This document shows, piece by piece, positions 2,201-60,251 of a stretch of DNA of 64,000 bases; position 1 is the stretch's first letter; each line of letters opens with the position of its first letter. The translations under genes were made by a program, and so were the position numbers. Where the stretch lies: positions 1 to 64,000 of IMG/VR virus record IMGVR_UViG_3300020435_000116. One strand, written 5' to 3'. Origin of the DNA: a virus. The notes beneath the pieces were generated by a model. It saw only the letters and a list, made by a program, of their open reading frames with translations. It made no database searches and was not told where the DNA came from.

Positions 2201-4075
2201 ATGACTATACTTTCAGATGTCTTGGAAGATACAGCATGGTTGAGGCAAGCGTTCCTTTTACGCAAGTCAGACATTGACGATGTTGATAAAAAACGTCGCG
2301 TGTTTTCAATGGCGTCAACAAAATACACAGATACCACATTAGGTGGTAACTACACAATTAATAACCCCCCTCAGTTTACTCGCCATGCGGATATAAAAGC
2401 AAAAGCACCATTTAGCCCCTCTAAGGGTATGGGGCGCTATTATAGCGAGGCGATAGACGATAACTCAATTACGCTACATATGCGTTTTGGGGTAGCGGAG
2501 TACAATTCGTTAACAACGTTCTTTACTAACTTCTTTGATAGTTCAATGGGGACGTTGGCTCGTACAGGCGAATCGACTGGGGTTTTGTACAACATTGGTA
2601 AGGTAGCTGGATTTCTATTTGCTATCCCCTTACTTCCTTTTGTGGTTGCTGGACGTATTTATCGTTTTTTAGATGATAAGCCATATAGTAAATACTACTA
2701 CCTCAAACCTACGATGCCTCTATACTGGGGCGCGGTTAATACTATCGTTAATAACTTAGCGGTAAACATGGGTTTGATAGGCGCTGCTGATATTGACTCT
2801 TATACCGTTAACGCGGATGGAAAGGCAGAACCTAACTACGAGGCGGGGTTAACATCTAAAGAGATAGAAGCGTTTAATAAGCTATTGCCGGATGTTTTTC
2901 GTGGAGATGGAGGTGTTGACATATATGCGATTGCTAACCGTGCTCAACGTATTCGTAATCGACAGATTGTCCTACAGCAGGCTGCGCTTCAAAATGCAAC
3001 AACCAGCGAAGGGTTAGCTACTGCAGCAAGACGTATGACCGAGCAAGACATTGGCCCTATTCCAGCAGGTTCTTCATTAAAAGACTACATGGCGCGTTAT
3101 CACTCTACGTCCATGGCTCAGGGTGCGGATGCGGATAAAGAGAAACAAGATCCTATTGGTTCTTGGGAATCTGGGTTTTTTGAACATCTTTCTAGTGAGT
3201 TATCGGATGGTTCACATTGGGTGAGTTTTAAGGTTAATCCTGATCGCTCTATCAATGAATCTTTCTCTAACACAACTGGTGAGTCTGACATTGCCAATAA
3301 GATCAACGGTATGTCGTCCTCAGCGCGTTCTGCGAGGTTTTCTACCTTAGATGGTAATATCGGCGATGGTGTTATCTCTGGAGCCATAGAAGGCATTATA
3401 GGCGGTGCTAAAGACGTTATTACTGGTGTTGCTGATGGTGTAGGTTTATCAGGTTTAGCTGCTCTAGGTGGTCGTGCCTTTGTAGATATCCCGGAACACT
3501 GGCAGGATTCCGTTGCTGAATTACCCAGTGAGTCTTACACGCTAGAGCTAAGAGCACCCTACGGTAACAAGATGAGTATCTTTACTAACATCTACGTACC
3601 GTTGGCTATGATCCTTGCAGGCGCGTTACCGTTATCAACAGGTGCGCAGTCGTATACCAGTCCGTTCCTTTGTGATCTGTTTGTTAAAGGTCGACAGCAA
3701 TCTAGATTATCAATCATCGACAGTGTATCTATTACACGTGGTGTGGGTAATATAGGTTGGTCAGTTGATCATCTACCTACGGGTATAGATGTTACAATAT
3801 CTGTTAAAGACCTATCAACAGTCATGCACATGCCACTTAATGATAGTCCAGGTCTCTTTGATGATGATTCATCCTTTAGTGACTATATGGGTATCTTAGG
3901 TGGTCTAGGGTTAACCGAGCAGTTCTATCCTGTTCAGAAGCTGAAGCGTCGATTTGTTCAAGCTACACAAGAGTTTGAGAAATGGACATCTCCTGCGTTC
4001 TATGCGCAGCATGTTTCAGCAACTGTTCCCGGTAGAATACTGGCGGCGGTTGCTCGTAATACAGGTCGTGGATAA
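2201..4075 (+). CDS. Virion structural protein, 624 aa
   Basis: ATG is preceded by an AGGAAACC ribosome binding site. No recognised domain. A hydrophobic segment lies near residues 130-155 (GKVAGFLFAIPLLPFVVAG), with Gly/Ala-rich hydrophobic stretches near 395-430 and 465-485, separated by soluble regions. It follows the partial tape-measure-like gene, a position often used for baseplate-hub or tail-tip proteins in contractile-tailed phages, but that role is inference. The gene ends with a TAA fused to a bidirectional terminator facing the convergent gene at 4119-5084. Confidence 0.6.
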   Translation: MTILSDVLEDTAWLRQAFLLRKSDIDDVDKKRRVFSMASTKYTDTTLGGNYTINNPPQFTRHADIKAKAPFSPSKGMGRYYSEAIDDNSITLHMRFGVAEYNSLTTFFTNFFDSSMGTLARTGESTGVLYNIGKVAGFLFAIPLLPFVVAGRIYRFLDDKPYSKYYYLKPTMPLYWGAVNTIVNNLAVNMGLIGAADIDSYTVNADGKAEPNYEAGLTSKEIEAFNKLLPDVFRGDGGVDIYAIANRAQRIRNRQIVLQQAALQNATTSEGLATAARRMTEQDIGPIPAGSSLKDYMARYHSTSMAQGADADKEKQDPIGSWESGFFEHLSSELSDGSHWVSFKVNPDRSINESFSNTTGESDIANKINGMSSSARSARFSTLDGNIGDGVISGAIEGIIGGAKDVITGVADGVGLSGLAALGGRAFVDIPEHWQDSVAELPSESYTLELRAPYGNKMSIFTNIYVPLAMILAGALPLSTGAQSYTSPFLCDLFVKGRQQSRLSIIDSVSITRGVGNIGWSVDHLPTGIDVTISVKDLSTVMHMPLNDSPGLFDDDSSFSDYMGILGGLGLTEQFYPVQKLKRRFVQATQEFEKWTSPAFYAQHVSATVPGRILAAVARNTGRG

Positions 4076-4125
4076 CGGCATAACCTACCTCTACCCATGA
4101 TAGGTAGAGGTAGGGTCTTTATGCG
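4073..4125. terminator. Bidirectional terminator with both stop codons in its arms
   Basis: A 12-bp perfect stem (CCTACCTCTACC at 4084-4095 with GGTAGAGGTAGG at 4103-4114) sits between convergent genes. The left flank is TAACGGCATAA, where TAA is the stop of the 2201-4075 gene. The right flank TTTATGCG contains the minus-strand TAA of the 4119-5084 gene. There is no U-tract. A nearly identical inverted copy lies at 16726-16779. Confidence 0.85.
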
Positions 4126-5084
4126 TTAAGGCTATTAGCTAGGCTAGTGGGATTGAAACGACGCATCAGTATAGATTGATCTTCCTGAGGCGTGTCGTTG
4201 GCAATCATGATAGCCGTAGATGTTTCACTTTGTGTCGACAATACCGTTTTAGCATCGTCAGATATACCACGCAAAGAACTAATATCTTTAACGTTATCTC
4301 CGCTGGCGTCGCTACGCATCCAGCTAGTGTCGATGGTCTTAATTTGTTCAACTAACGTCGCTCCGGCGCGTTGATGGTTATTCGGGTTGTTATCACCTGC
4401 AAGACTGTAATTCTTTAGCAGAGTATTAACAAGATTAGGGTTATTGGCTTTAAGCTTAGCTGAACCTACTAACTTAGATAAAGAAGCAAGACTAGCCGCA
4501 TCCCCACGTTTAGCAGCTACAATGCCCTGCTTGGCAATACGTGTTGCACTGAAGTCTAACCCTACTACTTCTGCTAGACAGTCGATTAAACCTGCTAGTC
4601 CTAGTAATAGGGCCTCTAAAAGCAGCGTATCGTTGACAGCTCGCGCCGTTGTTCTATCTTCAATGCTGGTACCGCTACACATACCGTGTATCTGAGTTAC
4701 CATATCTTGAAACGCTTTTGCCTCGCTAAGCTCCGTTGCTATCCCCTTTACAATAGTTCCATCTAGTAATTTAACCGTCTTTTGACCTACAGTGCTATCT
4801 TCTTGCAAGAATCCTTGTAAGTTCTTAACTGCAGTAGCACTTAAGTTAGAAATAGAAATGTTCTTACCCGTAGCAGAAGACAGACCTGAACTAGTAGGCG
4901 CAGCAGGTGCTTTGCTAGCAACACGCTTAACTGCACTGTCTATAGATTTAGATGAAACATTATCAGGAGAGCTCACAGCATCTACTAGAGATTTAGAGCT
5001 AGGGGTAGATGATGAACTATCAGAGGGGGAGAATAGATCAACAACCTTAGGTAACGATTTTGTTGCGGTAGTAAAAAGACTCAT
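4119..5084 (-). CDS. Hypothetical Ser-rich phage protein, 321 aa
   Basis: ATG is preceded by AAGGAG at good spacing. The N-terminal 80 residues are Ser/Pro/Lys-rich and probably disordered (SPSDSSSSTPSSK). The remainder looks helical, with a hydrophobic helix near residues 150-170 (LLLEALLLGLAGLIDCLAEV). No family recognised. It is flanked by structural genes and terminates at the bidirectional hairpin shared with the upstream plus-strand gene. A virion or scaffold-associated role is possible but unproven. Its last codons (Asn-Ala-stop) form part of the repeated terminator arm. Confidence 0.55.
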   Translation of the reverse strand: MSLFTTATKSLPKVVDLFSPSDSSSSTPSSKSLVDAVSSPDNVSSKSIDSAVKRVASKAPAAPTSSGLSSATGKNISISNLSATAVKNLQGFLQEDSTVGQKTVKLLDGTIVKGIATELSEAKAFQDMVTQIHGMCSGTSIEDRTTARAVNDTLLLEALLLGLAGLIDCLAEVVGLDFSATRIAKQGIVAAKRGDAASLASLSKLVGSAKLKANNPNLVNTLLKNYSLAGDNNPNNHQRAGATLVEQIKTIDTSWMRSDASGDNVKDISSLRGISDDAKTVLSTQSETSTAIMIANDTPQEDQSILMRRFNPTSLANSLNA

Positions 5085-5126
5085 ACAAGGTCTCCTTCAA
5101 TGCAAAAAAAGAAAGTGAATACAATG

Positions 5127-5156
5127 GTCGAGCCTACCTGCAAGCAGATAGGTCGA
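5127..5156 (-). terminator. Hairpin terminator after the 5194-5589 gene
   Basis: Read on the minus strand, GTCGACCTATCTGC pairs across a TT loop with GCAGGTAGGCTCGAC, about 13 pairs with one bulged C. A run of seven T residues follows about 20 nt later, just before the start of the next minus-strand gene. It separates the 5194-6112 pair from the 4119-5084 gene. It could also act as a leader structure for the latter. Confidence 0.5.
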
Positions 5157-5193
5157 CGCATCGTTATAGTTTTTTAAGGGCGTAGCTTATTGT

Positions 5194-5589
5194 TTATTTT
5201 TCATGTTCATCTGGTTCTTGATGTTCCGAGAACTGCAGTTCAACACTGTGTTGCGTTACCTTCTTGCGAATAGTAAGTTCTACGCTAAAGCGTATACGAG
5301 TCGCACCTAAGAATCGCATCATCTTAAGAAACGTTTTAATGGTCATCGGGTCAGATGCCATTTGTTTATTAATATTGCCACGTGCCGTGTGTCTAGGCTT
5401 ACCAGATCGAGGTAGACCATTGACTGGATCGTTGAGATACGTATCCATACGGCGGTTCCATCCCATTGGGGTGATATTAAAATCATCCAAGATTACTCGA
5501 AACAATCGACTCAACGCGCCTCTAGCCGATAGTGTCTTTTTATTAGAATCTTGTAGTATTTCATTCACGCTATATCTGTCGTCAAACAT
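5194..5589 (-). CDS. Conserved-looking phage protein, 131 aa
   Basis: The start ATG overlaps the stop of the upstream gene by 8 bp (ATGTTTGA), indicating translational coupling. The protein has a basic centre (RSGKPRHTARGNINKQ) and a C-terminal part that looks alpha/beta (IRFSVELTIRKK), ending in a charged His/Glu tail. It resembles small phage nucleic-acid-associated proteins in composition, but no family is recognised. Function unknown. Confidence 0.55.
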   Translation of the reverse strand: MFDDRYSVNEILQDSNKKTLSARGALSRLFRVILDDFNITPMGWNRRMDTYLNDPVNGLPRSGKPRHTARGNINKQMASDPMTIKTFLKMMRFLGATRIRFSVELTIRKKVTQHSVELQFSEHQEPDEHEK

Positions 5590-6112
5590 AATCGTTTAAA
5601 ATCACTTTTTCAAGTGCCTCCAGCATTTGTCCTATGTCTTGAAATAAACGCATCATCCGTCGAGAATAATAACTGTAGCGAGCGGTATTTTCTTTTTCCA
5701 TGACCATTAGAATGTCGTGGATAGGAGTAACTGCTTCACTCAATGCTTCCCAAAACCGTTGGATATCGATGTCGTATTGCTCGTCATCTACCAGCCAGGC
5801 GTCCAAGGTTAAGGTGGTGCGTCTACTCGTTAATGCCATTGCTTCAGCAGGTATCTCTGCATTCTTTTCAACGGCGTCTTTAACAATGTTTATGAACTCT
5901 AACATTTGCTCAGCGTTGCGGTGCCATACTATCATCGTAATAGCTTTGCCGTCTTTAGGACGGTAGAAAGCGAAGTCACGAGATGTGTACAGTGAGACCA
6001 AACCACCAAGAACTTTAGCGTTCATACTATTACGCATGGTTTTAAACTGCGTCCTGAATAGGACTATTCGTAGCCACAGTTTAAGCCTATACCAGCGAGA
6101 GGGTGCTTTCAT
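5582..6112 (-). CDS. Hypothetical protein, 176 aa
   Basis: The frame can start at a GTG at 6145, but that GTG lies inside the CACCTA...TAGGTG palindrome. The ATG at 6112 has its own AGGT site (GAGGTAAAT-ATG) and is preferred. The N-terminus is strongly basic and hydrophobic (RWYRLKLWLRIVLFRTQFK), possibly an amphipathic membrane-contacting helix; the rest is helical. No family recognised. It is coupled to the 5194-5589 gene by an 8-bp overlap. Confidence 0.5.
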   Translation of the reverse strand: MKAPSRWYRLKLWLRIVLFRTQFKTMRNSMNAKVLGGLVSLYTSRDFAFYRPKDGKAITMIVWHRNAEQMLEFINIVKDAVEKNAEIPAEAMALTSRRTTLTLDAWLVDDEQYDIDIQRFWEALSEAVTPIHDILMVMEKENTARYSYYSRRMMRLFQDIGQMLEALEKVILNDYV

Positions 6113-6141
6113 ATTTACCTCATTGCTATAGTTATTACAAC

Positions 6142-6162
6142 TCACCTATGTAATGTAGGTGA
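6142..6162. promoter_or_regulatory. Candidate promoter/operator element with palindrome
   Basis: A CACCTA...TAGGTG palindrome (6143-6148 with 6156-6161) contains, on the minus strand, ACCTACATTAC. The same 10-11-mer recurs upstream of other minus-strand genes near 38655, 41487, 43893 and 60184. It lies in the divergent gap between genes starting at 6112 (-) and 6193 (+), 39 nt upstream of the former. Confidence 0.4.
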
Positions 6163-6192
6163 ATAATTTATACGAATCCTAGGGAGGCTTCT

Positions 6193-7328: not shown

Positions 7329-7331
7329 TAC

Positions 7332-8955: not shown

Positions 8956-8966
8956 AACAGAATTTC

Positions 8967-11912: not shown

Positions 11913-11942
11913 ACGGCATAAAGCAGGGCATCAATGCCCTGC
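11913..11942 (-). terminator. Terminator after the 11931-12362 gene, ATGCCGT type
   Basis: On the minus strand GCAGGGCAT pairs with ATGCCCTGC across a 2-nt loop, then TTTATGCCGT follows. The TGA stop of the upstream gene lies within the hairpin. The flank matches the shared terminator motif of this window. Confidence 0.75.
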
Positions 11943-12362
11943 AATATACCTCTCAAATTCCGCATCACTCACCCGCCTAACCGACGGATCATTTAACTCC
12001 ATTAATACTACACGGTACACCAGCAACGTGTCTTCCTGCATGAGGTCGCTATTGTAGCCGTACTTAAGCCAATCTGGTACTGAGCGTTCTATGTCATCCA
12101 TAGATATCTGGTTATGCGTTACTACTTCTTCAGATATCTTTTGGCCTAATGGAGTATCTCTCCATATTGTCTCAGTAAACAAAGCCGGTAAATTAAACGT
12201 TTCATCATTAGGTGTCCAATCTAAACAGACACCATAAAGACGACTATAGTTAACTTCTCGATGACTCCTACGAACCAGAAAGGTAAACAATGTGGTAATG
12301 TAGAAAAGACGTTTCATCATATCCGGCATGAAGCGTTTGCATAATGCGGTGGATACAGACAT
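11931..12362 (-). CDS. Hypothetical protein with N-terminal hydrophobic helix, 143 aa
   Basis: A strong GGAGGTGA precedes the ATG. Residues about 13-30 (MKRLFYITTLFTFLVRR) form a positively flanked hydrophobic segment, possibly a membrane anchor or signal sequence. The rest is soluble and acidic (WTPNDETFNLPALFTETIW). The stop codon is embedded in the terminator hairpin. No family recognised. Confidence 0.5.
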   Translation of the reverse strand: MSVSTALCKRFMPDMMKRLFYITTLFTFLVRRSHREVNYSRLYGVCLDWTPNDETFNLPALFTETIWRDTPLGQKISEEVVTHNQISMDDIERSVPDWLKYGYNSDLMQEDTLLVYRVVLMELNDPSVRRVSDAEFERYIAGH

Positions 12363-16732: not shown

Positions 16733-16779
16733 AGACCCTACCTCTACCTTTAGACGGGTAGAGGTAGGTTATGCCGTTA
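16726..16779. terminator. Bidirectional terminator, inverted copy of the one at 4073-4125
   Basis: The same 12-bp stem as at 4084-4114 with a different 8-nt loop, flanked by CGCATAAAGA and TTATGCCGTTA. The arms contain TAA stops of the 14812-16732 unit (+) and the 16777-17790 gene (-). Each 24-nt arm is identical to the corresponding arm of the other copy on the opposite strand. Confidence 0.85.
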
Positions 16780-20876: not shown

Positions 20877-20921
20877 AGCCTAACCACCTAGCCGTGAGGC
20901 CGGGTGGTTAGCTTATGCCGT
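20871..20921. terminator. Bidirectional terminator, ATGCCGT type
   Basis: Stem CTAACCACC with GGTGGTTAG (20880-20888 and 20903-20911) and a GC-rich loop. The left flank GCATAAAG contains the stop of the SbcC-like gene; the right flank TTATGCCG is followed by the stop of the minus-strand gene at 20922. Confidence 0.8.
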
Positions 20922-24001: not shown

Positions 24002-24019
24002 TCACTGATCATAAACACA

Positions 24020-24055
24020 TCGATGGGTAGGGTAAATCCCTACCCATTTATGCAA
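24020..24055 (+). terminator. Hairpin after the 23417-24001 gene
   Basis: ATGGGTAGGG (24023-24032) pairs perfectly with CCCTACCCAT (24038-24047), followed by TTATGCAAT, a partial match to the TTATGCCGT flank. It lies 20 bp upstream of the next ribosome binding site, so it may reduce rather than stop read-through. Confidence 0.65.
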
Positions 24056-24074
24056 TCTCACTAAGGAGCGGGTT

Positions 24075-26888: not shown

Positions 26889-29792
26889 ATGACTAACTTA
26901 GCCAATCGGCTCCCCGATAGTCAACCACCTCTGTCGGCCGCTGCATTTAATGCACGACGTGACATCAACCGCGACAAGTACGCTGCGTCAGGCTACATAG
27001 AGCCAGGTAAATCTTTAGGTATTGAACCCACGCTGACCAGGTCTAACGGTGGTGGTCTATGGACATCTAATAACATAACCCAGGCTATTAGATTAGGTAG
27101 ACCCTACGCGGATGGCTATGGTGATGGTGATAGTGAGAACACCATTTACCATGTGGATGGGATAATAATCCATCTTTGCGGTATAAATTGGTCTACAGAA
27201 GAAAACAATCATGTCCTATTGCCGCCTGCGCCAATGGCCTATCCTGAAGCTAGTACTATCACTACCCAAGATTATAAACAGGGTGACCATGTTGTTGTAG
27301 GCAACAACATCTACGTCTGCATTCACCCTGACGGGTCAACTGCTGGCGTCGCGCTTACGGACGATACGTATTACGAAGTAAGGGATGTAGTATCTCGTGA
27401 AGATCTAGTAGGGATGGAAGTATTCCTAGTAGAGCTGAGCAAAGATGATGTAGATGCCGTATATCCTTACGGTAACGTTCATTATACACCGACAACGTGG
27501 AAGCGTCAGACTTTATATTCTTCAGTAATGCCACAAACATACAGCGCATTTTACACTGGGGATACTGCTACCATAGGTCGTGGTATGAAATGGTCCACCA
27601 TGACGCCAGAAGAACGTAACTGGTGGGCTAGTGATCCAGTTAACAACATCTATGTTGAGGATGGCAAGTATTACCAGTGGCAGTATCGCCTCCGTTCAGT
27701 ACCATCTCGCGGTGGATTTTGGAAAAATGCGTGCGCTTGGGATACAACTGTTTCAGCTATCGCTGATGGTAGAGACTTTGTACCTGAAAACCCAACTCAC
27801 CGCTATTATGCTCCGCAAGGTAAGTTAGAAGAAGCAGGTCCTTACTTTCTTACAGTGGACGAAGGTTACCCATTTAACTACATGCTGACTACGCAGCATT
27901 TTTCATTCCCTAAAGAAACCACTCTAGGTGTTGCAGCAAGTAATTCAGAATACGTGACTGTCGAACAACAGAAATTGTCTGCCAATGGTAGAGTTTATCA
28001 CGTAGGTTTAGCAAGAGTAACGCGTTTGAATATGGGAGGTTACCACCCATTTTACAACCCCACAGGTACGCGTACTTTTCGACGTCAGGATATAAACGGT
28101 GATAACCGTTGGGAAAATATTAATACATTCCAGCCTAAATCGGTAGCGGATTGTTTTAAAATCGGACCAACTGCTCAATCTGAAGGTATATACGAACATT
28201 CTGGGTTTAAAATTAGCGCCCGCAGTGGACATCCCCAGGACTATCGTCACGATAACATCTACGATTGGCAGGTTAAAGATCTCCGTATGTCAGCACACGG
28301 CATAGACATCACTGCAGATGAGTTTGCTAGAAAACTACTTAGCACACATCACCGAGGGTGGGAGAGGTCTATGATGATGAAAATCACCCAAGGCGTAATC
28401 TCTACTAAGGGCGTCAATAGACTTACATTAGATATCAACGTGTTACCCGACCACGACGGCGTTGAACCTACCGCATATATAGGAGGATGTTGGCTGTATA
28501 ATAAAACTAAAGGTGAAGTATTTAGTTTTACTGCCAATGTTGATGGTAATGGAAACGAGCTGTTCTTCACGAACCATGTCGAAGTAAATCCCGAAATATT
28601 AGACCAGCCTTATGGTTATTATAGCGACGGATCCCATATCAACAGCTGGGAAGTAGGCGATGAGGTTGTTGCTATTAATTTCAAGCGAATTCGTCACTAT
28701 GGTAATCGTTTAGAAAAGATTGACTTAATCTGCACACCTGAGAAACTAGTAGAGACGTTCGAGTATTTTAACGTAGATCGGGTAGTTGGCATGAGTTGGA
28801 TACCTGAAATGCTAGGTTCTAATGGTAATGATGGGGTTGTTTGTAAAGCTAGACGTCATGTTCAAAACGCACTACCTATGCTGAAGAGCGACAATGCAGG
28901 TAGCTATTGGACATTAAATGGTTATTCTAGCTACCTGCAGGGGTTTAGATCCCCCGCTAATGCAGCAACTATTGTAAATCCAGCGACTGATGTCTTGATG
29001 TTGATGTATAACACTCCCGCCTCATCGCTATATCATACGGGTACCGGTTTAGGGTTGTTAGATGGCGAGTATGGAGCTGTACATTATACAGGAATATATA
29101 AGGTAGAAGAGGGGGGGTCGCTTTGCTATAACCTAACCGGTAAAATCACAACTGGAGACACAAACCCTCAATCGATTTCATACGAACTGATCAGAAATGG
29201 AATGGGGTATAATGACGCCTTCAATTTCGACTACCCGGAGTCTGGTCTTTATGGGTCTATATTCCATACGGACATTACTATCAGAGATACTGATGAAGAC
29301 GGCGTGAAGTTTTCGCCATTTTTAACCTACGACCGTAACGCTGGTACGATATACGGGCAGGGTTTCTTTAAAGAAGTTCGTAACGTGTACCGTGATGACG
29401 TGTTAACAGTTATCGACCTAAGTGAATCGAACGTTACAGTCAATGTAACGAAGGGTGAGCGCTTCATGATGGTAAATTCGTCTACATCTGGGATAGCTAA
29501 CGTGCCATTAGTTGCACTACGCGATACTAATGTTACTGTTCCTGCAGCGCACTTCGATGGGTGGCAGATCGGTATCGATGATGGGCGTGTTTATAGGAAG
29601 GATGGATATTTTTGGGATATAGCAGCCGTTGACCCTGTTTCAAAGAGTGGCGATGATAGTATACTATCTAACGCACAACACCTAAGGTTAGGTGAGGATC
29701 TTAATGGGAATATAATCACATACGGATCTTTTAGAACTGACGAAATTCTCGGTTTTGTACCTAGACATAAACGTCGTAAATCAATCGTTTAA
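26889..29792 (+). CDS. Long tail-fibre/receptor-binding paralogue 1, 967 aa
   Basis: First of three tandem paralogues. Landmarks in order: SGYIEPGK (about 35-42), LLPPAPMA, GDHVVVGNNIYV, VSREDLVGMEVFLVE (168-182), YQWQYRLRSVPS, ARVTRLNMGGYHPF(Y)NP, SGHP...HDNIYDWQVKDLR, RGWE, GGCWLYNKTKGE, WEVGDEVVAI, VIDLSESNVTVNV and LGFVPR near the end. The segments between landmarks are divergent. Location, size, duplication and Asn/Tyr/Gly-rich beta composition fit a receptor-binding fibre; no enzymatic motif was seen. Confidence 0.65.
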   Translation: MTNLANRLPDSQPPLSAAAFNARRDINRDKYAASGYIEPGKSLGIEPTLTRSNGGGLWTSNNITQAIRLGRPYADGYGDGDSENTIYHVDGIIIHLCGINWSTEENNHVLLPPAPMAYPEASTITTQDYKQGDHVVVGNNIYVCIHPDGSTAGVALTDDTYYEVRDVVSREDLVGMEVFLVELSKDDVDAVYPYGNVHYTPTTWKRQTLYSSVMPQTYSAFYTGDTATIGRGMKWSTMTPEERNWWASDPVNNIYVEDGKYYQWQYRLRSVPSRGGFWKNACAWDTTVSAIADGRDFVPENPTHRYYAPQGKLEEAGPYFLTVDEGYPFNYMLTTQHFSFPKETTLGVAASNSEYVTVEQQKLSANGRVYHVGLARVTRLNMGGYHPFYNPTGTRTFRRQDINGDNRWENINTFQPKSVADCFKIGPTAQSEGIYEHSGFKISARSGHPQDYRHDNIYDWQVKDLRMSAHGIDITADEFARKLLSTHHRGWERSMMMKITQGVISTKGVNRLTLDINVLPDHDGVEPTAYIGGCWLYNKTKGEVFSFTANVDGNGNELFFTNHVEVNPEILDQPYGYYSDGSHINSWEVGDEVVAINFKRIRHYGNRLEKIDLICTPEKLVETFEYFNVDRVVGMSWIPEMLGSNGNDGVVCKARRHVQNALPMLKSDNAGSYWTLNGYSSYLQGFRSPANAATIVNPATDVLMLMYNTPASSLYHTGTGLGLLDGEYGAVHYTGIYKVEEGGSLCYNLTGKITTGDTNPQSISYELIRNGMGYNDAFNFDYPESGLYGSIFHTDITIRDTDEDGVKFSPFLTYDRNAGTIYGQGFFKEVRNVYRDDVLTVIDLSESNVTVNVTKGERFMMVNSSTSGIANVPLVALRDTNVTVPAAHFDGWQIGIDDGRVYRKDGYFWDIAAVDPVSKSGDDSILSNAQHLRLGEDLNGNIITYGSFRTDEILGFVPRHKRRKSIV
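27279..27346 (+). repeat. 68-bp tract identical to 30250-30317
   Basis: Inside fibre paralogue 1, a 68-bp tract beginning CAGGGTGACCATG is identical base for base to 30250-30317 in paralogue 2, although flanking codons differ. The third paralogue keeps only part of the protein motif here. Confidence 0.9.
27390..27433 (+). repeat. 44-bp tract shared by all three long fibre genes
   Basis: The tract encoding VSREDLVGMEVFLV is identical at 33273-33316 in paralogue 3 and differs by one silent base at 30361-30404 in paralogue 2. Identity at third codon positions shows recent exchange or strong constraint. Confidence 0.9.
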
Positions 29793-37440: not shown

Positions 37441-37478
37441 ACCATGGGGTTGTAAAGCCCCATGGTTTTATGCCGTTA
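37441..37478. terminator. Bidirectional terminator, ATGCCGT type
   Basis: CCATGGGG pairs with CCCCATGG (37442-37449 and 37458-37465), followed by TTTTATGCCGTTA, where TTA is the minus-strand stop of the endonuclease gene. Confidence 0.85.
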
Positions 37479-38624: not shown

Positions 38625-38649
38625 CTTTTAATATCGTACACTATTTAGG

Positions 38650-38660
38650 TAATGTAGGTA
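38650..38660 (-). promoter_or_regulatory. ACCTACATTAC candidate promoter element
   Basis: On the minus strand ACCTACATTACC, 26 nt upstream of the endonuclease start. Same sequence as at 6151, 60179 and, with changes, 41482 and 43888. Confidence 0.4.
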
Positions 38661-39329: not shown

Positions 39330-39366
39330 AAATGGGGCTCTTTTATAGGGTCCCATTTATGCCGTC
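39330..39366 (+). terminator. Terminator after fibre protein C, ATGCCGT type
   Basis: AATGGG pairs with CCCATT (39331-39336 and 39352-39357), followed directly by TATGCCGT. The inner part also pairs weakly. Confidence 0.7.
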
Positions 39367-40274: not shown

Positions 40275-40310
40275 GAGGTGAGAGGGATAACCCTCTCACC
40301 TATGCCGTTA
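40275..40310. terminator. Bidirectional terminator, ATGCCGT type
   Basis: Perfect stem GGTGAGAGGG with CCCTCTCACC (40277-40286 and 40291-40300) and an ATAA loop, then TATGCCGTTA, containing the stop of the convergent gene at 40308. Confidence 0.9.
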
Positions 40311-41507: not shown

Positions 41508-41540
41508 ACGGCATAAGAGGATGCTATTACGCATCCTCTT
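41508..41540 (-). terminator. Terminator after 41547-41936, ATGCCGT type
   Basis: AAGAGGATGC pairs perfectly with GCATCCTCTT (41515-41524 and 41531-41540). On the minus strand TATGCCGT follows. Confidence 0.85.
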
Positions 41541-41546: not shown

Positions 41547-41936
41547 TTAATGATCTAAATACACTAGCAAAGGTAGAAGCCATACAGCCGCGTAAGGGCT
41601 GACCAAGAGCTTGAATGCGACATGCATACTTATCTCAGCAGCAAGTTCACTATCACAGGCCCTAACGACACTGATAGCAAGTAGCGTTAGTATGTAACTA
41701 AACAACCATGTCGTAAAAACACCGCTGGCTAAATAGAATAACCCGACCCCTATTGCCGTGCTGGAATCCTTTAATAGCATGGCTAAACGGTCATACCACG
41801 TAATGATCCTAGCATCTAAAGAACGACAGCGCTTGCAGCGACTGACTCTAAATAGATACTCGCCATCTAACACTGTATACGCGTTTAAGATAATAATTAA
41901 ACCAATGCTAATAAAGGTAAGGTGTTGAAAAGTCAT
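41547..41936 (-). CDS. Multi-span membrane protein, 129 aa
   Basis: Hydrophobic segments near residues 5-20, 60-90 and 105-126, with a Cys-containing basic loop (SRCKRCRSLDAR) between. Four-base overlap (ATGA) with the upstream gene. No family recognised. Location in the lysis block suggests a role in membrane disruption or superinfection exclusion, but this is inference. Confidence 0.55.
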   Translation of the reverse strand: MTFQHLTFISIGLIIILNAYTVLDGEYLFRVSRCKRCRSLDARIITWYDRLAMLLKDSSTAIGVGLFYLASGVFTTWLFSYILTLLAISVVRACDSELAAEISMHVAFKLLVSPYAAVWLLPLLVYLDH

Positions 41937-43394: not shown

Positions 43395-43493
43395 CCCTCT
43401 ATCCTCACCTAATGTGTTAAAAAAATAAATACAGCATAACACTGTTCATAAGAAGAGTCTTCTGACCCCTCCTATAAACAGTCTATTATTTAA

Positions 43494-47823: not shown

Positions 47824-47854
47824 ACGGCATAAAGCCAGGGACAACGCCCTGGCT
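47824..47854 (-). terminator. Terminator after 47858-48256, ATGCCGT type
   Basis: AGCCAGGG pairs with CCCTGGCT (47833-47840 and 47847-47854). On the minus strand TTTATGCCGTG follows. It ends the 47858-49136 cluster. Confidence 0.85.
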
Positions 47855-47857: not shown

Positions 47858-48256
47858 TTAATTACCTACGCGCGGTTTACCCACTGGACCTTGATCAGGA
47901 CTAATAGCCTCTAGTAGATTACGTGACTCGTTATTAATACGTTTAATACGTATCAGCAAATCAATAATCTGCCGACTGTTTAATTTAAGAGATTGAGCAG
48001 CTAGGCTTTTATCTCTTTCGATATATTCTTGCTTTTCATTCATCTCCGCAATTAACTGATCAATAATATCCTCAAGGGGTATACCGTCAGGATTTGTTCG
48101 AGACATGAGGATTGGGGTCGTACCCATAGCGCCCGTCTTCCTAGTTACGTGTGTTAACTGCGCCATTGGATCGACTTTAGCTTGAATGATCTTTTCTATA
48201 TCTCCGAGCGTTTCATGTCCGACGTTTGTGGGTGTAACTAAAAAGAAAGTTGCCAT
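47858..48256 (-). CDS. Hypothetical protein, 132 aa
   Basis: AGAGG precedes the ATG at 48256, which overlaps the RuvC-like stop (TGATG); a GTG one codon earlier is possible. Helical throughout the second half (IDQLIAEMNEKQEYIERD). No family recognised. It is coupled to the resolvase gene. Confidence 0.5.
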   Translation of the reverse strand: MATFFLVTPTNVGHETLGDIEKIIQAKVDPMAQLTHVTRKTGAMGTTPILMSRTNPDGIPLEDIIDQLIAEMNEKQEYIERDKSLAAQSLKLNSRQIIDLLIRIKRINNESRNLLEAISPDQGPVGKPRVGN

Positions 48257-48831
48257 CACGACCTCTTTATATAAGGACCAAATTGGAATTCATAAAACCA
48301 GTAAGCCACAGCTACCGCATCAACACTGTGCTCGTCTAGTTCCTCAGGGTTTACATCTCTTTCCCAGCTAATATCATCTTTTGCAATAAGTGCCTTTTGC
48401 ATGTCATCTTTATCTTTACTAGAACCTGACACACCAAGTGCGTTCTTAACGCTCTTAGGGTCAATCTCATTAAGCTTCAATGAGAAGTCATGTGTAAGTA
48501 GAGCTTGATTGACAATACACACGCATTCTTTTAATGCACCATAAGCTGCAGGGAAACGTCCTAAGAATGGCGTCTCGATTGCAACAGCATGGGGGTCCCA
48601 CTGATCAAAGATATTCAAAATTGCATTATAGTGACCGTGTAGTTTAGCTACTCTATCACCATGTATTTTGGCAATATGAGCGTATCGCTTAACATGGTCT
48701 TTACCCTTTAGCGTAAAAGACTGGGCGCAGATAACTTTATAGGTTCTAATGTCTACCTCTAAAATACCTACACCCATGTTGTCAACGCTAGGATCAAAGC
48801 CAATGATGCGAAAAGTGTTTACACCGAACAT
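48256..48831 (-). CDS. RuvC-like Holliday-junction resolvase, 191 aa
   Basis: RuvC catalytic pattern: Asp13 (IIGFDPSVDNMG), Glu86 (VAIETPFL) and His168/Asp171 (DEHSVDAVAVAYW), with a conserved-type K/S stretch between. It resolves four-way junctions in recombination and packaging. The family also includes phage branch-removing nucleases. Confidence 0.85.
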   Translation of the reverse strand: MFGVNTFRIIGFDPSVDNMGVGILEVDIRTYKVICAQSFTLKGKDHVKRYAHIAKIHGDRVAKLHGHYNAILNIFDQWDPHAVAIETPFLGRFPAAYGALKECVCIVNQALLTHDFSLKLNEIDPKSVKNALGVSGSSKDKDDMQKALIAKDDISWERDVNPEELDEHSVDAVAVAYWFYEFQFGPYIKRS

Positions 48832-54773: not shown

Positions 54774-54817
54774 CGCATAAGTTGTAGGGTAGGATCACCT
54801 ACCCTACTTTATGCCGT
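54774..54817 (+). terminator. Terminator after the portal gene, ATGCCGT type
   Basis: CGCATAAG flank after the stop, then GTAGGGTAGG pairs perfectly with CCTACCCTAC (54784-54793 and 54798-54807), then TTTATGCCGT. Confidence 0.9.
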
Positions 54818-54837: not shown

Positions 54838-55038
54838 TTAATCGGACTTACGGTTACGACGTCGCTGTTGTCTTGCTACTTTAGCACGCTTACGTCCTTT
54901 AATGCGTTTATTGCGAGCAGCCTCGTCCTCTAACCTGGCTCTACCGGAACTACATCGTTTAGCTGTAATTGGAGCATTAGAAAAAGAAGAAGCCATAGCT
55001 GCTACTAGAGCAGCATCCATACGGGGTTTAGAGAACAT
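54838..55038 (-). CDS. Small basic protein, 66 aa
   Basis: AAGGAATG precedes the ATG at 55038; a longer start at 55119 would overlap a strong terminator. The C-terminal half is Arg/Lys-rich (RIKGRKRAKVARQQRRRNRK), suggesting nucleic-acid binding or a capsid-internal role. It lies between portal and the low-complexity protein gene. No family recognised. Confidence 0.55.
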   Translation of the reverse strand: MFSKPRMDAALVAAMASSFSNAPITAKRCSSGRARLEDEAARNKRIKGRKRAKVARQQRRRNRKSD

Positions 55039-55066
55039 GAGACATTCCTTATTTTTATAATTGAAG

Positions 55067-55124
55067 ACAAAAAAATGGAGAGGGCAAAACCCCCTCTCCA
55101 AAATGTCTGGCCCTAACACCAGAC
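55067..55124 (-). terminator. Double hairpin with U-tract
   Basis: On the minus strand GTCTGG pairs with CCAGAC, then GGAGAGGG pairs with CCCTCTCC, then TTTTTTT. This is a classical intrinsic terminator, unlike the ATGCCGT type, at the end of the 55157-60121 run. Confidence 0.85.
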
Positions 55125-55156
55125 GCCCTTTTAAAGGGGTAGCGACGTGTGGGTTA

Positions 55157-57235
55157 TTATCCCCACAGTCCCAATGCGTAGTAGTCTTTACTTAGCCAAC
55201 CTGGCAGTACTTTTAGGCGGTACCCATCGATAGTGTCGATGAAATAATGACGTACGTTCAACTCGCCTGTGCGAGAGAATAGATCTTTTAACACTTTAAA
55301 CTCAGTTGGATTAACGGATTGTTTAACCGATGCAATAGGTGTTTCTTTAGAGATGTTAAGCTCCATTTCTTTAAGGCTCCAAGGAACCTGAGTAATAGAG
55401 ATGACGTCTGCTAGGAATACCACAGCGTAGTCTTCTTTAGTTAGATCTAAGATGTCTGTATCTTCGATGTTTTCTACAAAGCCCGATAAGTCGGTAGCTT
55501 CTGCCAATTCTACAATGTTGTCTTTAAGACGCTCAGCATCGTAGGTAGATTGTAGATAGTTACTTACATCACCTGCAGGGACAGCAGAGAAGATAAGCGA
55601 TAGTAGATCGTTAACTTTATCTTCAAACAGTTTGCGCGTACGCTCACCGTGTTCATTTTCGATTTCAGTTAATAGATCATCGAAGTCAGCTAACTCATCT
55701 ATAGTCCAATCAATAGACAGCGAGTAGTTAAGTGCATCGTTGATAATGCTGATAGCGCGATTAGCAATTTGACCACAGAAACGCTCAGGCATATCTAAGC
55801 CGTTCATAGTCTTAATGAAATCACCCATCGTCTCTGCTGCAACCAGATCATTTGCTCCTTCGCGATCAACACGATAAGCAATCGGTTTTAACTGACGATA
55901 TTGGAATTCCAAGATAGCGCCCTCAGGGATCTTGATGTTCTTGCTGATCAACGCTTGACGCAAATAGAACTCGGCTTGTTGATCAGAATGCGCATCAATT
56001 AGATTGTTAAGCTGTACTGCTGGGACCATCTCATCCTCCTCAGCCTCATCCGATAGGATTGTCGCTGTGGCGTTTACGTAATGGTAGTTCCCCCATCCGT
56101 CACCTTGAGGAGAACCACTAGGCTTACCTAGATTTTGAGTAGTAAGGGCTTTATCTAATTCGTGCTGTTCGTAATCCATGAATTCACCTTTTTCTTTAAT
56201 GACTTCCACGACGTAACCGTCTTTGTGCGGTAAGTAAATACGTTCGTGTGTGTTAGGGTTGTGTAAAATGTTAACAGGTAGAGTAGGTAATGTACTCATA
56301 CCGGCAGCTAGATCAGTGTAGTATAGCGGTGCGTCGTACTTAGACGATAACTCATTGTCAAACGACACATCTTCAGCAGGTTTAATCTCAGGGGTATCCC
56401 AGCGACCACGCCCAAAAGATTCTACGGTGTTGGTAGCTGGTTTCTTATCCGTCTTACCCACATCGACTTCTTCGTAGTTGTGCAATCCACCACGACGACC
56501 AGTATCTACTGTCGAACGAGCAGGTGTGCGCTGGTTAGTGAACATCGATGAACCACCGTTATTCATACCGCCATAGTTATTACCCTGATAGTTTGACTGA
56601 CTATTGAACCCACTCGTTGAGTTAAATCCACTTGTACGCGGGGCATAGCGATCGCCACCGCCCTGGTTATAGCCCCCGCCTTGATTAAAACCACCTTGGT
56701 TAAAACCACCACCTTGATTGCCCCACTGACGACCACCACCTTGCTGTTGATTTTGAAACTGCATAATCTGCTGCTTCAATTGTTCAAACTCAGCAAGTGT
56801 GGACTGTACAGAATTGATGATGTTTGGATCCTGCACCAATTGCTGCAACGGTTGGAACTGTATTGCGTTAACCGATGCGTAGATCCCTGTCATTTTCTGG
56901 GCAACCATCTGACAAGCACCTTCTAGGTTTTGATTACCTGAACTCATTACAAGTTCTAAGAAGCCGCCAGATGAAATAAGCATATCCTCGTATGCTTGGT
57001 TGTTATACATGTTGTTCGCCATTTGATTATACAAGAACACACGCAGAGGATTACGTGTTGCCTGCTCTTGTAAGTTATGGCGTAGGTAGCCGTCCATCAT
57101 TCTAAATGCATCTGGACCCAACTGCATTGGGAATCCGTTAGGGGGATTACGACCAGGTACTGAATACGGCAGTCCTTGAATAAAGAACTGCTGATTAGGT
57201 ACGTTAGGATCAAAGGGTAAATTACCGGGGTACAT
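55157..57235 (-). CDS. Virion-associated protein with Gly/Gln/Asn low-complexity domain, 692 aa
   Basis: GAGG precedes the ATG. Residues 1-140 are Pro/Asn/Gln-rich and helical. Residues about 150-240 are low complexity (QQQGGGRQWGNQGGG, FNQGGGYNQGGGDR, then NSTSGFNSQSNYQGN), prion-like and Arg-containing. The C-terminal 400 residues look folded (alpha/beta). No family recognised. The tract could support condensation or assembly. It follows the putative polymerase-fragment gene on the same transcript. Confidence 0.6.
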   Translation of the reverse strand: MYPGNLPFDPNVPNQQFFIQGLPYSVPGRNPPNGFPMQLGPDAFRMMDGYLRHNLQEQATRNPLRVFLYNQMANNMYNNQAYEDMLISSGGFLELVMSSGNQNLEGACQMVAQKMTGIYASVNAIQFQPLQQLVQDPNIINSVQSTLAEFEQLKQQIMQFQNQQQGGGRQWGNQGGGFNQGGFNQGGGYNQGGGDRYAPRTSGFNSTSGFNSQSNYQGNNYGGMNNGGSSMFTNQRTPARSTVDTGRRGGLHNYEEVDVGKTDKKPATNTVESFGRGRWDTPEIKPAEDVSFDNELSSKYDAPLYYTDLAAGMSTLPTLPVNILHNPNTHERIYLPHKDGYVVEVIKEKGEFMDYEQHELDKALTTQNLGKPSGSPQGDGWGNYHYVNATATILSDEAEEDEMVPAVQLNNLIDAHSDQQAEFYLRQALISKNIKIPEGAILEFQYRQLKPIAYRVDREGANDLVAAETMGDFIKTMNGLDMPERFCGQIANRAISIINDALNYSLSIDWTIDELADFDDLLTEIENEHGERTRKLFEDKVNDLLSLIFSAVPAGDVSNYLQSTYDAERLKDNIVELAEATDLSGFVENIEDTDILDLTKEDYAVVFLADVISITQVPWSLKEMELNISKETPIASVKQSVNPTEFKVLKDLFSRTGELNVRHYFIDTIDGYRLKVLPGWLSKDYYALGLWG

Positions 57236-57282
57236 AAGAGACCTCGTTGTTTTTTGTCGGTAGTGTGTTTACAGTCTGATTG

Positions 57283-58899
57283 TTACGTGCGTGCAATTTT
57301 AGCTTGTACTGAGTCAATCAAATCGGCAAACTCTGGATTAGGTATAATCTCACCATCAGGTGTTACATTTAAGTAAGGGTTAATCTGGCCATGACCTGTT
57401 GGGCAGGAACTAGGCTGATTACCATAACTACATACTTCTGCTAGCGAGGCATGCAGTAACCTAGATGGTTTAGTCTTCGTACCGTTACGAGAGCCAGTCG
57501 CATCGGTCTGAGGCACTACTTTGTTAGTCATCTTAAACATAAGGTTATCACCTGCGGTAGAGAGTGAACTTACTTCACCATGGCCGGTGTTAATCTTACG
57601 GATGGTATCAAACTTAAGATACTTATCCATTAGTTTTTCGATGTCTTTACTCGTTAGTGTTTTATTTTTATTAGAGTTTAACTTGAAGGTGAAATTGAAT
57701 ATAGCCTTTATCACATCTAGTAATATATATCTCAATGTTGTTAGCTTCTTACCGTATAGGTTAGAAACGTCCGTTGTGACTATAATCTCATTCATGGTTT
57801 CGATGATATAAGCAAATAGTGCGTAAATGTCTTTACACTCTACCCCTTCCTTCTCAAGGTTCATCTGTACCAATCCATCAATGTAGTAATCTAGACTCAC
57901 CAGGTGAGCGTCGATGTCCTCTAAGAGCCTTCCTTCATTCACTTTACTCTTGAAGATAACGTGTCCCATCAACACACGCCATAAACGTGTATCGTCAATG
58001 TACTCCGGACGAATACGCTGAGTAAAATGATCTGCTAAGTAGAAGAAGGTTGCAAGTAGGTTGTCTGATAGCTGACTGCGTTGATCACGTTTACACGCTA
58101 CACGTATTTGAGTAGGTCTGTAGCCCTTACCCTTAACGCTAATAGGCTGTAAATGTAAGCTCTCTACAATCATCCATTCAGACTTAGGGTGGGTTTGCTC
58201 GTTAATCGTGTTACGATCACCCACCACTACATCCATACCGCAGAAACGTTTGAAGGTTTCCGTTACCCCGTATTTACAAAACAGATAATGACCTAAGGTA
58301 CTTACCATATTTAGGCGGAGTCCACCCATGTAGATAATCTTAGAGTTTTTATCTTTCTGGCGTAAATGGTAAATAGTACTCCATGGGATACTTAAGGTTT
58401 CTTTTACACCATCGATGACCAGGTTGTGCGTGACCCTCTCAAAGGTAAGTTTGTCACGTGTTAACGCAACGAATAGTTTACCATCATCAACAGAGAAAAG
58501 ATTATCAACCATGACAGGATTGATAACATACTTAGAACCATTTACACGTATTAAACCACCTGGTCCAACAAACGGAAGTTGTAACAGACGTGGGAATAAC
58601 TTCTGGCCTTGATAGCTGAAGTTAAATTGAACAGCGTAGAAGTCACTAGGTGCTAGATTAAACTCAGCACGCGATGAACGCTTGCGCGTCATGTAGTTAT
58701 ACTGCTGCTCTGGTGTCGCTCGTTTGTACTCTCCATCGTACGTAAATCCCTCTGGAAAGCTTCTTGCTGCACATTTCCACACATGGTCGATGTATTCCTC
58801 GACTCCACGCATCTGCTCTACGACCAATCCTTCCGCCAAAAGGGGATTGAACTTAGGCACATGTTGCTCGTGTATGTGTGTAAATAAATATTGATCCAT
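57283..58899 (-). CDS. Putative phage RNA polymerase beta N-terminal-like subunit, 538 aa
   Basis: GGAGGATG precedes the ATG. Two parts recall RpoB/RPB2: residues 114-135 (GGLIRVNGSKYVINPVMV), like the GxFIINGxExVIVxQ motif, and the C-terminal 60 residues (RLLHASLAEVCSYGNQPSSC, then PTGHGQINPYL), like the (V/L)H.(S/T)H(Y/W)G..CP.ETPEG...GL motif. An STAGDN stretch upstream fits the order. If correct, this is the split beta N-terminal part of a multisubunit phage RNA polymerase, as in phiKZ relatives. By-eye evidence only; other subunits are not in this window. Confidence 0.5.
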   Translation of the reverse strand: MDQYLFTHIHEQHVPKFNPLLAEGLVVEQMRGVEEYIDHVWKCAARSFPEGFTYDGEYKRATPEQQYNYMTRKRSSRAEFNLAPSDFYAVQFNFSYQGQKLFPRLLQLPFVGPGGLIRVNGSKYVINPVMVDNLFSVDDGKLFVALTRDKLTFERVTHNLVIDGVKETLSIPWSTIYHLRQKDKNSKIIYMGGLRLNMVSTLGHYLFCKYGVTETFKRFCGMDVVVGDRNTINEQTHPKSEWMIVESLHLQPISVKGKGYRPTQIRVACKRDQRSQLSDNLLATFFYLADHFTQRIRPEYIDDTRLWRVLMGHVIFKSKVNEGRLLEDIDAHLVSLDYYIDGLVQMNLEKEGVECKDIYALFAYIIETMNEIIVTTDVSNLYGKKLTTLRYILLDVIKAIFNFTFKLNSNKNKTLTSKDIEKLMDKYLKFDTIRKINTGHGEVSSLSTAGDNLMFKMTNKVVPQTDATGSRNGTKTKPSRLLHASLAEVCSYGNQPSSCPTGHGQINPYLNVTPDGEIIPNPEFADLIDSVQAKIART

Positions 58900-58996
58900 T
58901 AGATCATCCTCCGATCAGTTATGTCTACATTCGGACATAATGACACTTCTTTTTAAGCATCACCATAGGGTTAGTGTTCTCTGTAATTCTTAACGC

Positions 58997-60121
58997 TTAG
59001 TCTCGGAATTTAGCCACTGCCGCCAATGCAATACCGATGCCTGTTACTAATGCGCCGCCTATTTTAAGGATCTCCACACCAACGCTACGCTCATCCTTCA
59101 TTCTATCTACTTTTGCTTTTCTTTCCAACTCCTCAATCTTCCTTTGATGATCACGTTCTTTACGTGACTCTTCTAAACGTTTAGCACGCTCTTCTGCTTC
59201 AGCTGCCTCTTTATCTAGCCGTTGCTTCTCTAGCTGATACTTCTTCTCCAACAATTTAACTTCATCCCCATAGGTAAGACACTCCTGGGGGTTGTAGTAA
59301 ATCATAGGCGCGTCTACGTTATCTGGATTCAAACAGTCTAACGTTTCATAATGGCTTGTGGTAGGACCATTGACAAAGATACCGTTAATCTCACCGGCTT
59401 GCGATGTATGGGAGCTACGATGTATCCAGATGCCGTCCTCAAGGCTTTCTGACATGGTAGGTTTAATCTCCATCACATCCCCTTGGATATTGATGTACAG
59501 TGAATCGAACCGCTTGGCATTATCTATCAGCGTGATTGTAAAGTTACTTCGTAGTAATGCTTTTCTATCATTCTCATGTTGAGTGAAGATACTGGTTGCG
59601 TCCTTACCAGAGTAAGGATGTCTAACGTCGTTCCCGTCTAACCCAATACAAACGTCTAGGTTAGTTAAGTAAAGTCCTTTAGGGTGATCTGAGATCGCCC
59701 TACCACCAATGATGTATCGGATAGTAAACTTTAATCCTGATTTATGTTTCTCTATATGGTCTCCTGATGTAATAGCTTCGATAACGCGCTGCTGTTCGCA
59801 GTGTTGATTGTTAACATCTTCTTCTACGTCAATCATTAGCTGGTTGATAAATTCATCCACACGGTCATAGGCGACTAAGAAGGTTTGCTCGACAATAAGC
59901 TTACCTACATGAGCCGATGGGATGTTCATGTGTTTATCCTCTAGTGTTAGAGGAAACATAATGTTGTTACGGTGAGAGAGATATAGCACCTTACCTGTAT
60001 AGTTATAATAGCTTTCAGTCACACGCAGTGCTGCATGTCGCGGCTGACTATACGTATTTTCCTTATACGCTTCCATTGATCTTATACGTGTAAAATGCCC
60101 CCTTTTCCTAGATTTGTCCAT
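58997..60121 (-). CDS. Structural/membrane-anchored protein with C-terminal coiled coil, 374 aa
   Basis: GAGAA precedes the ATG. Residues 1-280 are beta-rich soluble. Residues about 285-345 form a charged coiled coil (KRLEESRKERDHQRKIEELE), followed by one hydrophobic helix near the C-terminus (ILKIGGALVTGIGIALAAVA). The tail-anchored layout suggests membrane attachment late in infection or a head-tail fibre. An ACCTACATTAC element lies 58 nt upstream. Confidence 0.55.
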   Translation of the reverse strand: MDKSRKRGHFTRIRSMEAYKENTYSQPRHAALRVTESYYNYTGKVLYLSHRNNIMFPLTLEDKHMNIPSAHVGKLIVEQTFLVAYDRVDEFINQLMIDVEEDVNNQHCEQQRVIEAITSGDHIEKHKSGLKFTIRYIIGGRAISDHPKGLYLTNLDVCIGLDGNDVRHPYSGKDATSIFTQHENDRKALLRSNFTITLIDNAKRFDSLYINIQGDVMEIKPTMSESLEDGIWIHRSSHTSQAGEINGIFVNGPTTSHYETLDCLNPDNVDAPMIYYNPQECLTYGDEVKLLEKKYQLEKQRLDKEAAEAEERAKRLEESRKERDHQRKIEELERKAKVDRMKDERSVGVEILKIGGALVTGIGIALAAVAKFRD

Positions 60122-60137
60122 TTGGCGTATTCTCTAA

Positions 60138-60174
60138 ACTTAACCCTATTAATGGTCTTAGCGCAAAGACCACT
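60138..60174 (-). promoter_or_regulatory. Leader hairpin of the 58997-60121 gene
   Basis: TGGTCTT (60152-60158) pairs with AAGACCA (60166-60172) between the candidate promoter element at 60179 and the start codon. It could be a 5' leader structure. Confidence 0.35.
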
Positions 60175-60178
60175 CTAG

Positions 60179-60189
60179 TAATGTAGGTC
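60179..60189 (-). promoter_or_regulatory. ACCTACATTAC candidate promoter element
   Basis: On the minus strand, 58 nt upstream of the start at 60121 and immediately downstream of the tandem terminators of the capsid gene, a natural place for a new promoter. Confidence 0.45.
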
Positions 60190-60204
60190 TGAAGTATCGT
60201 CGAG

Positions 60205-60251
60205 ACGGCATAGACGGCATAACACCCAGGAACCTTAAGTCCCCAGGTGTT
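60205..60251 (-). terminator. Terminator downstream of capsid gene with doubled ATGCCGT flank
   Basis: On the minus strand a 10-pair stem (AACACCTGGG with CCTGGGTGTT, two wobble pairs) is followed by two copies of ATGCCGT two bases apart. The 60122-60383 stretch holds no gene, only this hairpin, the capsid-end hairpin and the promoter element. Confidence 0.75.

Follow-up and report, generated by a model that had tools for sequence, protein, structure and literature searches.

Hairpin sites at gene ends of the contig

We analyzed a recurrent element at the gene ends of a virus contig, a hairpin followed by the constant word TATGCCGT, in IMG/VR record IMGVR_UViG_3300020435_000116. The window, positions 1 to 64,000 of that record, is part of a 124-kb contig (123,978 bases; G000) related to phiKZ-like jumbo phages. 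At the DNA level, the contig weakly matches jumbo phages of Vibrio and Pseudomonas; among protein families, it matches a major head protein, virion proteins, and a polymerase family, and its polymerase gene gave protein matches to 271 phage records, each with less than 60% identity. It encodes homologues of phiKZ gp71, gp73, gp74, gp80, and gp123, while a gp68 homologue, present in G001 and G002, was not found in G000. By sequence homology, the phage group is phiKZ-like, with homologues of subunits of both the virion polymerase and the non-virion RNA polymerase (nvRNAP) of phiKZ. In the window, the homologue of GP123, the beta-like subunit of nvRNAP, is encoded at 57283-58899 on the minus strand (PDB 7ogp_E, E value of 3.5e-92; the gene matches PHIKZ123 in PDB entries 7ogp, 7ogr, 8que, and 9rjs). 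Neither a tRNA nor an Rfam family match at the gathering score was found in the window. G001, used below for comparison together with G002, is a near copy of G000 (99% in the flanks).

TATGCCGT occurs 13 times in the window, against a mean of 1.93 and a maximum of 7 in 100 dinucleotide-preserving shuffles, and 23 exact copies are present on the whole contig (10 beyond the window) versus 7 for a reversed-pattern control. Twelve of the 13 window copies are placed -2 to 7 nt relative to a hairpin end, on the same strand as the gene ending upstream; the exception, at 28297, is antisense within open reading frame (ORF) 26889-29792 and has no hairpin. An earlier note on this DNA had described the word at about twelve gene-end hairpins and expected it to be enriched over shuffled sequence, and both claims hold. 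Its placement of the flank before or after the hairpin was wrong: CGGCATAA is the same word read on the opposite strand, and in transcript direction (T)TATGCCGT is 3' of the stem in all 12 hairpin cases, with two-sided flanks only at convergent genes. The 13 TATG-type hairpins fold at -14.7 to -27.6 kcal/mol, and for 12 of them none of 200 shuffles folded as well (5/200 for the hairpin at 47824). A stable hairpin directly 3' of a gene, as in an intrinsic terminator, is what the window sites present.

The two-sided hairpins, starting at 4084, 16737, 20880, and 54784, all lie between convergent gene pairs. The first (4084-4114) has TTATGCCGT as its minus-strand flank (motif 4075-4082) and TCTTTATGCGT as its plus-strand flank. 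Hairpin 16737-16768 is followed on the plus strand by TTATGCCGT (site 16737-16777) and on the minus-strand side by TCTTTATGCGT, hairpin 20880-20911 by CTTATGCCGT (plus, 20880-20921) and CTTTATGCTGC, and hairpin 54784-54807 by TTTATGCCGT (plus, 54784-54817) and CTTATGCGT, respectively. Two convergent hairpins are asymmetric, with the word on one side only: 37441-37466 carries TTTATGCCGT for the plus-strand gene (37441-37476), and 40276-40301 carries TATGCCGT on the plus strand (40276-40308), its minus-strand side being T rich without TATG. Also on the plus strand, hairpin 39330-39358 shares one base with TATGCCGT (39330-39365), and at 24018-24056, at co-directional genes, the 3' arm merges into TTTATGCAATC, a partial motif. 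On the minus strand, hairpin 11923-11942 overlaps the end of gene 11931-12362 and is followed by TTTATGCCGT (site 11913-11942, motif 11913-11920), hairpin 41515-41540 by TATGCCGT after gene 41547-41936 (site 41508-41540), and hairpin 47833-47854 by TTATGCCGT after gene 47858-48259 (site 47824-47854). Hairpin 43441-43482, followed by the variant GTTATGCTGT (minus, 43430-43482), is an addition to the sites listed earlier. Two copies had been reported at 60205; both are there, as tandem TATGCCGT words, and their hairpin is now placed in front of them at 60220-60252 on the minus strand (site 60205-60252), downstream of the major head protein gene (60384-62546, minus) and directly upstream of an early-type promoter motif.

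Whole stems are also repeated, with CCTACCTCTACC and CTAACCACC occurring three times each (4084-4114, 16737-16768, and 20880-20911 in the window and 64801, 92670, and 99121 on the contig), and this recurrence suggests copying of terminators within the genome.

Conservation of the flank and spread among phages

We compared 40 aligned sites, chosen by TATG in G001 only and with each strand of a convergent hairpin entered once, between G001 and G002. TATG was identical at 158/160 positions and YYGT at 146/160, compared with 85% identity in the stem arms, 51% in the loops, and 76 to 80% in the surrounding sequence. Among the stem pairs of 30 different hairpins, 281 were unchanged, 38 were broken, 26 were altered on both sides and still paired, and 18 were altered on one side and still paired. 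The earlier proposal that the flank is under selection is borne out by this alignment, in which TATG is conserved more than stem arms or loops.

We then surveyed gene-end hairpins from 17 genomes or large genome parts. Genes were taken from a script that picks the longest ORFs, hairpins came from a simple stem finder (stem of at least 6, loop of 3 to 8), and TATG was sought from -4 to +12 of the stem end. Convergent hairpins were counted once per strand, and SNUABM_54, FLC9, Ea35-70, OBP, EL, pVa-21, XC31, SPN3US, AR9, and T4 were represented by partial sequences of 160 to 240 kb each. On the contig, TATG was found on the 3' side of 30/43 hairpins, against a mean of 3.2 and a maximum of 9 in 500 shuffles, and on the 5' side of 1/43. 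A U-tract directly after the stem was found in 3/43, so that most of these hairpins lack what would mark them as ordinary intrinsic terminators. TATG after gene-end hairpins exceeded all 500 own-flank shuffles in 11 of the 17 genomes, belonging to nine lineages with phiKZ included, and was present at 461 of their 858 hairpins: besides the contig, G001 (48/69), G002 (47/69), 201phi2-1 (40/97), PhiPA3 (53/105), phiKZ (50/123), Eowyn (54/98), SNUABM_54 (33/66), FLC9 (37/56), Ea35-70 (44/73), and OBP (25/59). The 5'-side control gave 0 to 5 per genome. TATG did not rise above the largest shuffle in the other six (45/378 pooled), namely pVa-21 (9/47; shuffle mean of 2.2 and maximum of 9, a borderline case), EL (12/66; 6.4 and 15), XC31 (11/70; 6.5 and 14), SPN3US (3/68; 5.4 and 14), AR9 (5/89; 5.0 and 12), and T4 (5/38; 2.6 and 8).

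Alignment of 384 sites from nine genomes on TATG gave the consensus TTATGYYGT. The two preceding bases were T in 52% and 71% of sites, and TATG was followed by Y (91%), Y (91%), G (62%), and T (63%), with OBP preferring TATGTT and FLC9 preferring TATG[CA]C. Lineages with GC contents of 37 to 56% have in common the A and G of TATG as well as the YYGT tail. Copies of TATGYYGT that were intergenic and after a hairpin made up 30/66 in phiKZ and 35/54 in G001 versus 1/14 in EL. TATG was commoner at convergent ends (228/320 hairpins) than at co-directional ends (169/430; 11 genomes, with G000 and G001 both counted). Gene-end hairpins of EL and XC31 are often followed by TTTATT, TTATTT, or CTTATT, possibly another stop word.

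The flank contains the phiKZ promoter core bound by GP123

The word at the hairpin sites contains TATG, the late promoter core of phiKZ. According to the part of PMC4666361 covered here, phiKZ nvRNAP starts at T-3ATG+1, and any single substitution there strongly lowers transcription. In the portion of the 2026 structure paper covered (PMC12809450), the beta-like subunit GP123 holds the four non-template TATG bases in a pocket, and all 14 checked pocket residues named in that portion fit phiKZ ORF 122209-123840 by number. Seven of these positions, S144, F151, K158, H/Y185, H331, S334, and Q466, are kept in all 11 TATG genomes, even in OBP at 19% identity. Elsewhere the pocket is changed: EL has P144, XC31 has R158 and P466, SPN3US and pVa-21 have several changes, and AR9 retains a single one of the seven. 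The TATG group has 19 invariant columns, 6 of which fall within the 14 positions of the pocket (Fisher P = 2e-6). Resolution of the tree is poor, with 4 of 12 inner branches well supported, and those branches imply at least two changes of terminator type; the sisters EL and OBP (support of 100/100) differ both in terminator type and at residue 144. The suggestion in the earlier note that a phage RNA polymerase reads the flank is supported by the nvRNAP homologues, by the binding of TATG by phiKZ GP123, and by the sharing of the motif among phiKZ-like phages that keep the pocket core; its other suggestion, an RNA processing factor, is weighed below as a rival.

U-tract terminators and early promoters

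U-tract terminators coexist with the TATG sites. The one region of the window previously singled out as a classical U-tract terminator, 55067-55124, does contain one, a hairpin with T7 at 55076-55100 on the minus strand, after gene 55157-57235 (minus) and overlapped by a 93-amino-acid ORF at 54838-55119. This site recurs in G001 and at G002 187343. It closes a run of three minus-strand genes, 58997-60121, 57283-58899 (the GP123 homologue), and 55157-57235, and an early-type promoter-like motif, ACCTACATTAC, lies at 60178-60188 (minus) upstream of the first. In G001, the gp68 run ends in a hairpin with CTTTTTTT, and a TATG site follows the gp71-73/gp74 run.

Early operons were inferred from the motif TATATTAC or CCTAYATTA, not from expression. 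The hits lie almost all on one strand in phiKZ (24/25), 201phi2-1 (21/21), PhiPA3 (15/16), Eowyn (16/16), and G001 (15/15), the five phages with at least 15 hits, which we pooled at a hairpin score of at least 20. Their early-promoter strand has 152 TATG and 48 U-tract hairpins, against 85 and 1 on the other strand (Mantel-Haenszel P = 1e-5). The bias is seen at co-directional ends (TATG to U-tract, 14:0 on the other strand versus 85:40 on the early strand; P = 0.010) and at convergent ends (71:1 versus 67:8; P = 0.034). The six other TATG genomes, G000, G002, OBP, FLC9, SNUABM_54, and Ea35-70, with fewer motif hits, gave 145 TATG and 27 U-tract hairpins versus 63 and 5, a weaker contrast in the same direction. 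TATG was also rarer at the first hairpins after early motifs (odds ratio of 0.32, P = 6e-5, six phages). The distance of U-tract and TATG hairpins from the nearest upstream early motif did not differ significantly in four phages (P = 0.27, 0.46, 0.44, and 0.32).

The motif ACCTA[CT]ATTAC, close to phiKZ TATATTAC, is found on the minus strand of the window at 60178-60188, 38649-38659, and 6150-6160, and intergenic early-type hits on the contig number 7 on one strand and 0 on the other. The minus side of hairpin 37441-37466, behind such a motif, has neither TATG nor a U-tract. In G001, 4 of 13 promoter entries have TTATGCCGT within 35 nt upstream, as if terminators insulated early promoters. At G001:C1:77924-77953 and at contig position 122163-122188, a hairpin carries CTTTTTTTGCCGT on the side of the early promoters, and its opposite side has ATGCCGT; CTTTTTTTGCCGT resembles the late word except that a T run takes the position of TATG, and a similar site is present in G002 at 122809. 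We considered GYYGT as a general part of U-tract terminators and rejected it, since among ten genomes few have it there (2/18 in phiKZ, 1/2 in G001, 1/6 in G002, 1/7 in OBP, and 0 in six others).

Proposed mechanism

We propose, with a probability of roughly 60%, that these sites are transcription terminators in which a hairpin is combined with a promoter-like pause word read by nvRNAP, U-tracts serving mainly the virion polymerase. A GC-rich RNA hairpin would form at the gene end, and the non-template strand would then read TATG about 0 to 5 nt from the hairpin base, the same letters that the GP123 pocket holds at late promoters. As the reader belongs to the core enzyme, TATG could be caught again in the bubble during elongation, the polymerase would pause, and the hairpin would pull the RNA out near YYGT, about 7 to 9 nt from the stem, where ordinary terminators release in the U-tract. 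The elemental pause preference of bacterial polymerases, Y-1 G+1, would fit a YG about 7 to 9 nt from the stem. The virion polymerase, transcribing the early genes, would mainly use ordinary U-tract terminators; with U-tracts for one enzyme and TATG for the other, there would be two stop codes for two polymerases. A fuller version, in which one core-subunit pocket recognizes both start and stop, with TATG in a fresh bubble starting a transcript and TATG after an RNA hairpin ending it, alongside a U-tract-stopping virion polymerase and hence two stop codes, is more tentative and, in our judgment, somewhat likelier to fail than to hold.

Several observations weigh against this proposal. In the register of initiation, no more than about 5 nt would separate the RNA 3' end from the stem, so that scrunching or forward slippage would be needed. 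TATG is missing from 73 of 123 phiKZ hairpins, and a control window 20 to 36 nt downstream has TATG in 1 to 17 hairpins per genome, the highest value being that of 201phi2-1 (17/97). The seven-residue pocket signature was picked post hoc from 14 distinct phages (16 rows) that share ancestry, pocket matches partly track overall identity or closeness to phiKZ, and phages without the motif also change invariant columns outside the pocket (SPN3US, 3/6 in the pocket and 4/13 elsewhere). PhiPA3 and G002 show no contrast between early operons and the rest, and when the hairpins are limited to stronger ones (score of 24), the P value over six phages is 0.09 (0.024 for TATG versus U-tract). Neither stop code is exclusive: some early operons end in TATG (4/21 in phiKZ, 5/12 in G001, and 7/11 in G002), U-tracts occur on the non-early strand (two in G002, two in SNUABM_54, and one in Ea35-70), and the early-type run of the window contains, between its first and second genes, a weak hairpin with TTATGTCC (58937-58966).

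The sites could instead be ordinary intrinsic terminators with a short, weak U-tract (TTTAT) readable by many polymerases, with GCCGT as an accessory or leftover. The frequent T at the two bases before TATG suits such a reading, as do the coexisting U-tract terminators and the LucasX record, which annotates hairpin 1552-1599 (motif 1552-1561) as an ARNold-predicted Rho-independent terminator. We nevertheless consider it unlikely, given that the A and G of TATG, like the YYGT tail, are found again over a wide range of GC content, that TATG is more conserved than the stem, and that U-tracts follow 35%, 30%, and 40% of the hairpins in SPN3US, AR9, and pVa-21, respectively, where TATG is not above shuffles. 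RNA processing is, to us, improbable to nearly the same degree. An endonuclease would cut at or near UAUGYYGU beside the hairpin, which would protect the new 3' end; a hairpin with a fixed single-stranded word suits an RNase or RNA-binding protein, and sequence data do not separate DNA reading from RNA reading, but the flank includes the DNA word to which GP123 binds, and its presence is associated with the pocket of this subunit.

A role as late promoters, in which the G of TATG would be +1 of the following transcript and the hairpin would serve the gene before it, has the identity with the phiKZ promoter core in its favor and may apply at the 169 of 430 co-directional hairpins that carry TATG. 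As a general explanation it is very improbable. Convergent ends carry TATG more often than co-directional ones, and some of their hairpins have it on both sides; promoters so placed would yield antisense RNA instead of starting a downstream gene, and we rejected a promoter-only reading for these ends because 228/320 hairpins there have TATG. The sites also carry YYGT, and in the part of PMC4666361 covered, no conservation was found downstream of TATG in phiKZ late promoters. Least probable of all is a DNA site for packaging, replication, recombination, or uptake, such as a repeat like the DNA uptake sequence. A repeated inverted word near gene ends does resemble the uptake sequences of Neisseria, but the Neisseria sequence, GCCGTCTGAA, has no match in the window, and the strict orientation after same-strand genes and hairpins argues against a DNA site.

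Relation to known systems

Our preferred reading, a hairpin with a pause word for nvRNAP, shares with bacterial intrinsic (Rho-independent) terminators the GC-rich hairpin right after the gene, sometimes shared by convergent genes, and differs in having the fixed mixed word TTATGYYGT instead of a U-tract. With phiKZ late promoters (T-3ATG+1; P119L), the sites share TATG, which in phiKZ GP123 binds on the non-template strand; unlike those promoters, they follow gene-end hairpins, convergent ones included, and have a YYGT tail that is reportedly missing there. In sigma-dependent promoter-proximal pausing, a -10-like promoter element met again during elongation stalls the enzyme, as TATG would here; the proposed reader in our case is a core beta-like subunit, and the outcome would be termination with a hairpin. 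The class II terminator of T7 RNA polymerase, ATCTGTT, is likewise a sequence-specific pause word for a phage polymerase, but that polymerase is single subunit and uses no hairpin and an unrelated word.

According to the part of PMC9209446 covered, structural work had by 2022 not defined initiation, elongation, or termination of these non-canonical polymerases in any respect. Phage N1M2, a relative of OBP, has 56 predicted Rho-independent terminators (PMC7058600, covered in part). Neither the stopping of phiKZ-like non-canonical polymerases nor these sites are described in the covered portions of PMC4666361, PMC5312081, PMC10612078, PMC7598289, PMC7618050, PMC12809450, PMC7058600, PMC6034870, PMC13282480, and PMC9209446. 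Words beginning with "terminat" are absent from the covered text of PMC7618050, PMC12809450, and the 2026 review PMC13282480. No earlier description of the terminator appeared among the titles and abstract beginnings listed, though one may exist. The sites, with a polymerase-specific promoter-like word in place of the U-tract, may be an undescribed form of the familiar hairpin terminator, and at least one such hairpin (in LucasX) is already annotated as a predicted Rho-independent terminator.

If the proposal is correct, one genome would be punctuated by two polymerase-specific stop codes, and the shared stop word would allow operon ends to be called from sequence throughout the family. The word also gives a direct test with an enzyme that has already been purified and solved with its promoter. 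Possibly, it is a terminator that the core of a multisubunit polymerase recognizes by sequence, and it may be relevant to the question why transcription does not begin at every copy of a four-letter promoter core so common in the genome. Another repeated intergenic structure was seen in phiKZ, PhiPA3, and 201phi2-1, where the stem-loop CCTCCCTTCGGGGAGG, with a UUCG loop, is found in many intergenic regions.

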